Shown here one piece after another: positions 6,370 to 30,981 of a DNA stretch of 64,000 bases. The first letter of the stretch is position 1; every line of letters starts with the position of its first letter. The position numbers and the translations under genes were made by a program. This DNA is from Rhodoferax sp. (GTDB lineage Bacteria; Pseudomonadota; Gammaproteobacteria; Burkholderiales; Burkholderiaceae_C), in the NCBI RefSeq assembly GCF_028689295.1, contig NZ_JAQTWL010000003.1:184104-248103 (forward strand). The letters run 5' to 3'. Below the pieces are notes generated by a model. That model saw only the letters and a program-made list of their open reading frames with translations. It did no database searches and was not told where the DNA came from.

Positions 6370-6375
6370 CTGGCC

Positions 6376-6460
6376 GTCATTGCGAGGCGCGTCGCGACGT
6401 GGCAATCCATGACTCTTGGGAGTTTTTGCGGATTGGCCTCTGCCTCGCGGGTTAAAAATA
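6376..6460. repeat. Palindromic interspersed repeat, copy 1
   Basis: The left arm gtcattgcgaggcgcg...ggcaatccatg lies in the parE-parC gap. It matches two other copies in this window (about 28990 and 29955). The right arm (ggattggcctctgcctcgcgg) is degenerate. This family of roughly 70-85 base hairpin-forming repeats, with tcattgcgag and gcaatcc cores, is seen between genes in many bacteria and resembles REP or small MITE elements. This copy is non-coding and could shape the parE mRNA 3' end. Confidence 0.75.
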
Positions 6461-28311: not shown

Positions 28312-28339
28312 ATCGTGTCAGGCCAGCGTGGTGCACGGC

Positions 28340-29020
28340 ATGGAGGACTTGCGACGCAACCAATTGGTCTGCCTTCATGCGCAGGGCTGGGCGCAGCTGC
28401 AAGCCCATGCCTGGGACGCTGAGGCGCAAGCCATTCTGGCGCATTGGCAGCGCAACAAGCTGCCGCTGGTGGTGTGCCGCCAGCGCATTGATGTTGAATC
28501 AGCGCAGGTTTGCCTGGGTTTGCCGGCACCACGGCAATGGTCCCGGCGGCGCCTGGCGCTGAAGCTTGGGCTGGATCAGGTGGCTGCCGTTGCGACCTTT
28601 CCCACCCTGCGGCAAGTGGCGCAGGCCATGCCGTGGGAGCCTGCCGCATTCAAGTTGGATGAAAAGCTGACACCACTGGCTGTGACGCCACGGGTTTACG
28701 GCTCGCACGGCTGGCAGTGGCTCACCCACATGCCCTATGTGCACGAAGCTTCGGACATCGATATCAGCCTGAACGTGCCGGATTTCGAGACGGCTTGCGG
28801 GGCGACGGCGTTGCTGGCTAGGGCTGAGTTGGGGCCGCGACTCGATGGCGAAGTCGTTTTCCCGGGCGGTCAGGCCGTTGCCTGGCGCGAATTGCAGCGT
28901 CTTCTGGCCGGGCACACAGCGCAGGTCATGCTCAAAGACCGTCAAAGTATCGGGCTGGCCACGTTGGCAGAGCTGAAGATTTGGGGAAGGTCATTGCGAG
29001 CGAAGCGCGGCAATCCATGA
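28340..29020 (+). CDS. mdcG: Malonate decarboxylase holo-ACP synthase (phosphoribosyl-dephospho-CoA transferase)
   Basis: MdcG attaches the triphosphoribosyl-dephospho-CoA precursor to MdcC. The ATG at 28340 (MEDLRRNQLV) gives 226 residues; GTG codons at 28328 and 28331 are in frame and possible. The nucleotidyltransferase core has the DxD motif in EASDIDISLNV and TPRVYGSHGWQ before it. Oddly, the last nine residues (SLRAKRGNP) and the stop codon are supplied by a palindromic interspersed repeat, so the natural C-terminus was replaced. The catalytic core is upstream and looks intact. Confidence 0.9.
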   Translation: MEDLRRNQLVCLHAQGWAQLQAHAWDAEAQAILAHWQRNKLPLVVCRQRIDVESAQVCLGLPAPRQWSRRRLALKLGLDQVAAVATFPTLRQVAQAMPWEPAAFKLDEKLTPLAVTPRVYGSHGWQWLTHMPYVHEASDIDISLNVPDFETACGATALLARAELGPRLDGEVVFPGGQAVAWRELQRLLAGHTAQVMLKDRQSIGLATLAELKIWGRSLRAKRGNP

Positions 29021-29067
29021 CTCCCCGCCACATGGATCGCCACGGCGCGGCTCACCTCGCGATGACG
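28990..29067. repeat. Palindromic interspersed repeat, copy 2 (mdcG end/mdcB leader)
   Basis: Left arm gtcattgcgagcgaagcgcggcaatccatg and right arm catggatcgccacggcgcgg...cctcgcgatgac are near mirror images and match the copies at 6376 and 29955. The left arm codes for the last nine residues and stop of MdcG. The right arm fills the mdcG-mdcB gap. A stable RNA hairpin is expected here. Confidence 0.82.
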
Positions 29068-29080
29068 GAGGCGTGTCCAA

Positions 29081-30067
29081 ATGCGGGCTGATCAACCGCT
29101 GCCAAACCATCGTTCAAACGCCGTGTACGGTATTGGGCTGGCCGCGGTGCGCGCACTTTACGCGGAGGTGGCGCTGGAGCCAAAACCGGGACTGGTGTCT
29201 TTTCGGGACTGCGGCAGCCATACCGACATGACTGCCCAGACCTTCGTGCGCAGCCTGTTTGTCTTGCGCGGCTATTTCCCTCGCATGGTGTGGGCAGGTC
29301 TTGCCGGTGCACCCTTTGCTGTTCTGGAAGGCTTGGGACAAAGCGCCGAAGCCCGCATGTTGATAGCCACCCGTGGCATCAACACCCACCGCGGCGCCAT
29401 TTTTTGCCTGGGTCTGCTGTGCGCCAGCGCGGGCCGGTTGCTGGCCCAGGGTGTGCTGGTCACGCCGCAGCATCTGCGTGCCGTGCTGACATCCACCTGG
29501 GGCGACGCCTTGACGCGGCGCGCGAATGCCGCACGGCTCACCGCGCCGGTGTCCCATGGTCAAGCGGCGGCACGTCGCTTTGGGCTGCGCAGCGCGGGCG
29601 ACGAGGCGGCGCAGGCGTTCCCGGTGCTGTTCGACGTCGCCCTGCCTGCCCTGCAAGCCGCTTTGCAGGCGGGGGCGGGCGATCGCGCGGCCCGTGTACA
29701 AACCCTGTTTGCCACCATGACCGCGCTGGACGACACCAATTGTGTCCACCGCGGCGGCATCGACGGTCTGCGCTTTGTTCAGGCGTCGGCGCTCCAGTTT
29801 TTGCGGGCGGGCGGTGTCATGCAAACCGACTGGCTGTCCCATGCCCGTGCCATCCATGCTGCATTCGTGGCACGTCGACTTTCTCCGGGCGGTTCCGCTG
29901 ACGTATTGGCGAGTGCCTGTTGGGTTCAGTCGCGCCTGCAAATGGATCCTGAACCGTCACTGCGAGGCGCGTTAGCGACGCGGCAGTCCGGACTACATGG
30001 ATTGCTTCACTGCGTTCGCAATGACGAGAGCGATTCACTCAAAACACCGCCCGAGCTTGCCGCATGA
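29081..30067 (+). CDS. mdcB: Triphosphoribosyl-dephospho-CoA synthase
   Basis: MdcB makes the prosthetic-group precursor from dephospho-CoA and ATP. The 328-residue protein has the family motifs ALYAEVALEPKPGLVSFRDCGSHTDM, GINTHRGAIF and DDTNCVHRGG. Bases 29955-30026 are a complete palindromic repeat translated in frame (SLRGALATRQSGLHG and onward to CVRNDES), adding 24 residues before the last 11. The reading frame and the ATGA overlap with mdcH survive. The enzyme core ends before the insert, so activity may be kept, but this is untested. Confidence 0.92.
   Translation: MRADQPLPNHRSNAVYGIGLAAVRALYAEVALEPKPGLVSFRDCGSHTDMTAQTFVRSLFVLRGYFPRMVWAGLAGAPFAVLEGLGQSAEARMLIATRGINTHRGAIFCLGLLCASAGRLLAQGVLVTPQHLRAVLTSTWGDALTRRANAARLTAPVSHGQAAARRFGLRSAGDEAAQAFPVLFDVALPALQAALQAGAGDRAARVQTLFATMTALDDTNCVHRGGIDGLRFVQASALQFLRAGGVMQTDWLSHARAIHAAFVARRLSPGGSADVLASACWVQSRLQMDPEPSLRGALATRQSGLHGLLHCVRNDESDSLKTPPELAA
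29955..30026. repeat. Palindromic interspersed repeat, copy 3, inside mdcB
   Basis: cgtcactgcgaggcgcgttagcgacgcggcagtcc pairs with ggattgcttcactgcgttcgcaatgacg. It is the same family as the copies at 6376 and 28990. It spans 72 bases, exactly 24 codons, and is read through without a stop in the mdcB frame. Confidence 0.85.
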
Positions 30068-30981
30068 GTTACGCCCTCGTCTTTTCGGGTCAGGCCAGCC
30101 AGCATCCGACGATGTTGCCCTGGCTCGAAGCCGAACCCCTGGCCGCGGCAAGCTTGCGCGCCATGAGCCAGCGCATTGGCACCGATTGGCGCAATGCGCT
30201 ACAGCACGAGGCCAGCCGCAGCAGTAACACTTTCGCCCAAGTGCTCATCACCGGCACCTCGCTGGCGGCATGGGCAGCCATCAAGGACCAATTGCCGCAG
30301 GCCCCCGCTGTCGTCGCTGGCTACAGCGTGGGCGAACTCGCGGCCTATGCCTGTGCCGGTGTGTTCTCGACAGAGCAGGCCATCGCTTTGGCGCAGCAGC
30401 GGGCTGAGTTGATGGATCTGGCGGTGCTGGGCTGGCAGACCGGCATGATGGCCGTGACAGGCTTGTCAGAGGACAGGGTACTTGCAGTCTGTGCCGGTCT
30501 GGGACTCGAATGTGCGATACGCATTCATCGCCACCAGTCGGTGTTCGCGGCGACCGACATCGTCCTGAACCAGGCCACGCCCCTGCTGGTGGCGCTGGGT
30601 GCAGTGTGCAAGCGGCTCGACGTGCGCGTGGCCTCGCATTCGTCATGGATGGCGCCAGCCGCACAGGACTTTGCCAAGGCATTGGTCGGGTTGCCATTCG
30701 CCGCTCCGCTGTGTCCCATCGCCACCGATGCTGATGGCACGCTAAGCCGGCAGGCGGCCACGCTGCGCCAGGCCCTGAGCCGCCAACTGGCCAGCACAGT
30801 CCAATGGGCCGCCTGCATGGAATCAATCGCAGAACGGCAGGTGGCCTGTGTGCTGGAAATCGGCGCCGGGTCAGCGCTGGCCAAAATGTGGAACGAGCGC
30901 TTTCCCGACATCCCGGCGCGTTCCCTCGATGAGTTCCAGCACGCCCAAGGGGCTGTGCAATGGGTTCTGCGAAACGGGTGA
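30064..30981 (+). CDS. mdcH: Malonate decarboxylase epsilon subunit (malonyl-CoA:ACP transacylase)
   Basis: A 305-residue FabD-like acyltransferase that primes the MdcC carrier from malonyl-CoA. The nucleophile elbow is GYSVGE (S88) and the catalytic histidine is in ASHSSWM (H192). The start begins with FSGQASQHPTM, the GQGSQ-like motif of this fold. Its ATG overlaps the mdcB stop by four bases, and it ends the mdc operon. The next gene is convergent. Confidence 0.93.
   Translation: MSYALVFSGQASQHPTMLPWLEAEPLAAASLRAMSQRIGTDWRNALQHEASRSSNTFAQVLITGTSLAAWAAIKDQLPQAPAVVAGYSVGELAAYACAGVFSTEQAIALAQQRAELMDLAVLGWQTGMMAVTGLSEDRVLAVCAGLGLECAIRIHRHQSVFAATDIVLNQATPLLVALGAVCKRLDVRVASHSSWMAPAAQDFAKALVGLPFAAPLCPIATDADGTLSRQAATLRQALSRQLASTVQWAACMESIAERQVACVLEIGAGSALAKMWNERFPDIPARSLDEFQHAQGAVQWVLRNG

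Follow-up and report, generated by a model that had tools for sequence, protein, structure and literature searches.

A CGTC-headed palindromic repeat pair in frame in mdcB of Rhodoferax sp., and in-frame copies of its family in other genes

How did a repeated, inverted stretch of DNA come to lie in the reading frame of mdcB, close to its 3' end, and does the protein make any use of the 24 residues that it contributes? In-frame palindromic insertions were at first held to be a peculiarity of Rickettsia and were later reported from scattered species. The window, that is, the whole 64,000-nucleotide stretch analysed here (window coordinate = contig position minus 184103), comes from a Rhodoferax genome of 3.49 Mb in 72 contigs, referred to as G000. 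By most of its features, though not by all, the mdcB element is a CGTC-tagged REP pair, and the repeats are named accordingly in the list of features that concern us:

28328..29020, + strand: mdcG (TIGR03135, 169 bits), start placed by an in-house codon scorer, 3' end inside a REP
28989..29067, no strand: second CGTC-REP pair, 79 bp, at the mdcG/mdcB junction; encodes the last mdcG residues, SLRAKRGNP, and the stop
29081..30067, + strand: mdcB, triphosphoribosyl-dephospho-CoA synthase, 328 aa (TIGR03132, 327 bits, residues 18-284; PF01874)
29955..30026, no strand: CGTC-REP pair, 72 bp, in frame in mdcB; two inverted units with CGTC ends outward and matches in its own genome
29955..29990, + strand: left REP unit, long-loop type (CGTCACTGC...GCAGTCC), equal to C69:214058-214093
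29998..30026, - strand: right REP unit, 29 nt (CGTCATTGCGAACGCAGTGAAGCAATCCA on the minus strand)
30027..30064, + strand: mdcB tail end after the element (ESDSLKTPPELAA), similar in relatives and running into the ATGA overlap
30064..30981, + strand: mdcH, malonate decarboxylase epsilon subunit (TIGR03131, 305 bits), start in the ATGA overlap with mdcB

The mdcB element and its repeat family

The element reads CGTCACTGCGAGGCGCGTTAGCGACGCGGCAGTCCGGACTACATGGATTGCTTCACTGCGTTCGCAATGACG, with CGTCA as its first and TGACG as its last bases, and begins at the second base of codon 292 in the 328-codon open reading frame of mdcB. The mdcB frame is free of stops throughout, in line with the 24 uninterrupted codons described in the first-pass annotation, and each of the other two forward frames contains a stop. 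Translation gives SLRGALATRQSGLHGLLHCVRND plus the shared end codons, and QSGLHGLLHCVR is an example of a tryptic peptide from the REP-encoded stretch. The annotation had also spoken of a complete palindromic repeat and of 11 residues kept after it. Its length and its repetition hold, but the two units, a long-loop left one and a short right one in opposite orientation, are not identical and do not make a single perfect palindrome; similarly, thirteen residues follow the element, the earlier count having taken in the last 11 only. The ATGA overlap with mdcH, which was said to be kept, is indeed present at 30064-30067.

The insertion lies past the conserved domain of MdcB, near the 3' end of the gene. 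In a structure model built from 10 sequences and of low overall confidence, the last helix extends to residue 286 and residues 287-328 form coil with pLDDT of 31-39, so the tail around the element is modelled as disordered. Forty-two residues of the tail, with the repeat-encoded peptide, matched none of the NCBIfam profiles at E up to 10, an Rfam search likewise found nothing, and a literature search for the literal string CATTGCGAG returned papers unrelated to repeats.

As DNA, the element is one of many. It has 32 blastn matches in its own genome, the best non-self match being 85% identical (E=2.5e-19), and a 29-base half-site pattern has 62 matches, compared with 0 for the reversed control. 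The genome holds about 80 units of the family; 85 were listed, three of which (C14:90641, C20:264123, C51:45732) resemble chance matches inside genes. At most places two units of about 29 and 29-36 nt stand in opposite orientation, usually spanning 66-80 bp in all; their outer ends are CGTC or TGTC and their inner ends CCA. Most G000 units begin with CGTC or TGTC, both mdcB units with CGTC, and nearly all carry the CCA tail, in place of which the left mdcB unit has CCG. Another single unit of the same family lies within the window at 6375-6409, just past a gene end.

The stem consists of a 5-bp outer and a 3-bp inner helix with mismatches in between, and a second, long-loop type of unit exists; the predicted fold of the mdcB element has an energy of -31.4 kcal/mol. 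The first stem pair is A-U in 29/30 units. Among 30 distinct short units the outer stem varies on both sides (ATTGC/GCAAT, ACTGC/GCAGT, ATCGC/GCGAT, ATGGC/GCCAT), with 12 two-sided changes, 93.8% of cells pairing and a covariation score that 0/500 shuffles reached. These compensatory changes suggest that the hairpin structure is maintained in some way, and structure-dependent spread would give the same pattern.

The CGTC-tagged REPs of Di Nocera et al. (2013, PMC3733652) have a CGTC, often TGTC, head, an A-T first stem pair and a CCA tail, occur as inverted pairs in tens of copies per genome, have no dedicated transposase, and are in some cases found within ORFs, among them uvrA, recB and further genes of DNA repair. 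The Rhodoferax units share the heads, the A-T first pair, the CCA tail, the inverted pairs, the copy number, the in-ORF sites, uvrA and recB among them, and, as far as Y1_Tnp genes go, the lack of a dedicated transposase; they differ in the stem, the published one having 8-9 bp and a loop of 4-5 nt, compared with 5 bp and a mismatch-separated inner helix of 3 bp here. A further difference is that in the single genus Rhodoferax the same loops are occupied by families unrelated to one another. The first-pass annotation was reminded of the Rickettsia palindromic elements (RPEs), and the likeness is more than an analogy because RPE-4 and RPE-6 of Rickettsia conorii belong to the CGTC-tagged superfamily, as CGTC-4 and CGTC-1 respectively (PMC3733652). 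RPE-4, RPE-6 and RPE-1 are, as in Rhodoferax, palindromic repeats in frame in many functional genes; the host here, however, is a free-living betaproteobacterium and not an obligate intracellular one, and the likeness was drawn from published descriptions. The betaproteobacterial repeat element BRE, of about 90 bp and often in tandem, is likewise a short repeat of Comamonadaceae, including Rhodoferax ferrireducens and Polaromonas, that sometimes lies wholly inside coding sequences (PMC3110155); by its described size and frequent tandem arrangement it may differ from the families seen here.

The MdcB tail in related genomes

MdcB homologues were drawn from the genus Rhodoferax and its neighbours, the named relatives being mostly metagenome assemblies. 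All of them have the SPGG.AD.LA motif, and beyond it their tails vary in length and sequence; close relatives have other or fewer residues between CWV and the stop, yet their mdcB tails end in the ATGA overlap with mdcH. The comparison proposed with the first-pass annotation, a search for mdcB versions that lack the 24 residues, therefore has a clear result: relatives either have no insert or carry other residues, and the outcome that would have spoken for an ancestral segment, the same residues in all related MdcB proteins, did not occur. The alignment holds eight other homologues without the insert. The exception is Rhodoferax sp. Kmv23 (L029), the sole relative with a CGTC REP at the mdcB site, in the same frame and with a longer left part. 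At the DNA level L029 and G000 are about 79% identical over mdcB-mdcH.

A different palindrome (GTAGGGCGGGCTTCAGTCCGCC...GTCGACTGAAGTCGACC) occupies the mdcB tail in other relatives, in one copy in L030 (the sequence of genome G049) and in two in L028. Its matches number at least 40 in G049, 48 in G032, 22 in G003 and 3 in G000, with 0 in 11 other genomes. The G049 copy resembles the GTAG-tagged REPs that go with RAYT transposases; the window element differs from these in its CGTC heads, and the sole Y1 transposase of G000 is flanked by other inverted repeats. The CGTC family is patchy among 15 genomes: it has 32 matches in G000, 36 in G049 and 12 in G003, four genomes have one or two, and eight have none. 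In a tree of the MdcB core the sister of G000 is L028 (support 96/95), the bearer of the other palindrome, and L029, with the REP, falls outside that pair; on these sequences it would follow that the tail exchanged repeats over time, or that the locus recombined.

The mdcB tail is short in L031 and G003. What looked like a clean empty site in L019/L031, with an exact 72-bp difference and 21 versus 45 residues after CWV, was rejected as proof because L031 and L028 share a tail stretch that matches the 3' end of the other palindrome of L028; the equal length may be chance.

The first-pass annotation had further suggested that the repeat is still mobile or was so recently. For the mdcB copy this finds no support: L029 shares the REP at the same site and frame in spite of the divergence of the surrounding DNA, which argues against a recent insertion, and the nearest genomic copy is the 85% match noted above. 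As judged from these comparisons the mdcB copy itself does not appear to be new, and present mobility of the CGTC family is neither shown nor excluded by them. A search for Y1_Tnp genes in G000 found no transposase dedicated to CGTC REPs. The one such gene is flanked by GGGGTCAGATTCC-type inverted repeats, not by REPs, and as a candidate mobiliser it was set aside for that different flanking repeat.

In-frame insertions in other genes

The survey for in-gene copies that the first-pass annotation proposed was carried out on the regions around the known G000 copies, with genes placed by an in-house hexamer (codon) scorer, and gave at least 13 in-frame insertions in 10 genes:

uvrA (2,082-aa UvrA-type protein): three in-frame insertions
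purL: two in-frame insertions
recB: one in-frame insertion
metH: one in-frame insertion
sua5 (Sua5-type threonylcarbamoyl-AMP synthase): in-frame head-to-head pair
pabB fusion: in-frame insertion
lpd (dihydrolipoamide dehydrogenase): in-frame insertion
nitrite/sulfite reductase gene: in-frame insertion
radical-SAM gene: in-frame insertion
mdcB: in-frame insertion at 29955-30026

The entries for recB, pabB, lpd, the nitrite/sulfite reductase gene and the radical-SAM gene record the in-frame state, the alignments of relatives covering uvrA, purL and mdcB; in metH and sua5 the inserted stretch is absent from human MetH and from an archaeal Sua5. These counts strongly support the earlier suggestion that insertions in protein-coding sequence are tolerated. 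The in-gene pairs are 72, 73, 79 or 80 bp long, so a fixed 72-bp unit does not account for the open frame, which depends on the net change at the individual site. At gene ends, too, there is overlap with REPs: the stop codon of mdcG (29018-29020) sits within the REP pair at the mdcG/mdcB junction, and that of an fdhD-like gene within another REP (L040, C69:148918-148991).

N-terminal overlaps with thyA-like, gluQ-like and hydrogenase-subunit-like genes were excluded from the count, as their start codons may be misplaced. The REP pair at the 5' end of the gluQ-like gene, whose called start may be wrong, is common to G000 (L058, C26:1303-1374) and G049 (L142, C137). G049 also has CGTC REPs in frame within a 776-aa open gene fragment and a 354-aa gene (L145, L147).

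In two of the proteins the insertions coincide with loops whose length varies among relatives. The UvrA-type protein (L083:6109-12357, equal to G000 C51:40109-46356) has five internal blocks of large length variation, at G000 residues 495-527, 863-892, 1082-1120, 1478-1509 and 1702-1719, and three of the five hold CGTC REPs in G000. It is not the only UvrA of this genome, a homologue being encoded in a 1,069-codon open frame at C28. In other genomes the blocks contain other sequences, several of which are multicopy palindromes: G025 has a different CGTC REP pair (47 or more matches), G049, G003 and G032 have a GTAG-like palindrome, and G025, G010 and G057 have a repeat of about 120 bp. In PurL the first insertion, the larger of the two, is absent from the aligned relatives; it takes up residues 385-418, and no other length-variable internal block of the protein is as long. 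The second is common to G000 and G049, the other aligned relatives being without that REP, and G025 has a different insertion of 28 residues in the same region.

Three further observations concern the UvrA loops. In the uvrA-type gene of G032 (L120), the block corresponding to G000 residues 863-892 is a 181-residue loop with two copies of the about-120-bp repeat, which is multicopy in other Rhodoferax. At the first uvrA site (L083; G000 C51:42669-42741) the REP pair has CGAACGG and CCGTTCG as its outer flanks; these look like the ends of a further palindromic repeat found in the same loop of G049, and the insertion is possibly nested. At residues about 1702-1719 there is an inverted repeat of GGGGTCAGATCCCAATT type, with the peptide LGSDPNF twice, of the kind that flanks the sole Y1 transposase gene.

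Whether a few fast-growing loops, those of the UvrA-type protein and PurL together with the MdcB tail, are landing sites that several unrelated palindrome families across Rhodoferax have in common is, in our estimate, an evenly balanced matter. Each species' abundant repeat would then be read as new peptide, and the loops would grow by repeated, sometimes nested, insertion.

Why the element persists in mdcB

We consider it probable that a CGTC-tagged REP pair inserted into a C-terminal tail of MdcB that is dispensable and unstructured, and is carried there as a neutral passenger, not as a functional domain. REPs would land widely, mobilised in trans by a putative transposase; insertions that break a gene would be removed by selection, and copies in permissive loops or tails with an open frame would persist and be read through as extra peptide. 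The mdcB copy would have been kept because its frame and length add 24 residues without a stop, sparing the end of the tail and the translational coupling to mdcH. Both the neutrality of the element and the part of selection as a filter are what we infer from this pattern.

The main rival is that the REP works as an RNA hairpin at the 3' ends of mdcB and mdcG, tuning stability or relative expression in the mdc operon mRNA, with its coding incidental. Two REP pairs at the two consecutive junctions mdcG/mdcB and mdcB/mdcH, other palindromes at the same mdc junctions in relatives, the covariation of the outer stem and the position of REPs in general, mostly downstream of ORFs (PMC3733652), are all consistent with such a role. 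The same element, however, sits mid-gene in uvrA, purL, metH and sua5, where there is no junction, and in several relatives the mdcB/mdcH junction is without a recognised element, so that we regard a hairpin function as unlikely, though clearly ahead of the explanations that follow.

One could argue from the REP at the same site and frame in Kmv23 that these 24 residues are an ancient segment of MdcB with a function, but this is already contradicted by the eight homologues without the insert, and the insert lies outside the family profile and its DNA matches dozens of unrelated sites; we give this reading hardly any weight. An artefact of assembly or of a chimeric metagenome bin is just as improbable: the relatives are mostly metagenome assemblies and G000 is itself in many contigs, but an independent assembly (L029) has a REP at the orthologous position in mdcB, the second purL insertion recurs in G049, and the genes on either side match those of relatives uninterrupted.

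The neutral passenger remains the reading that we prefer for mdcB, and parts of the wider picture have precedents. REPs inside genes, uvrA and recB among them (PMC3733652), in-frame RPEs (PMC10969869) and a repeat of betaproteobacteria located in coding sequences (PMC3110155) have all been described. What appears to be new, as far as the open-licence literature goes, is how many in-frame insertions one free-living betaproteobacterium carries, and that in related species palindrome families unrelated to one another make use of the same loops. For annotation, peptides like VIASEARQSM or SLRAKRGNP within or at the ends of proteins should be taken as translated repeats and not as domains. Given 13 insertions, of which PurL has two and a single UvrA-type protein three, and given the empty or differently filled loops in many relatives, the entry and persistence of repeats in proteins become testable by comparison. 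If the loops are indeed shared landing sites, a free-living genus would be gaining new protein segments recurrently from palindromic repeats.
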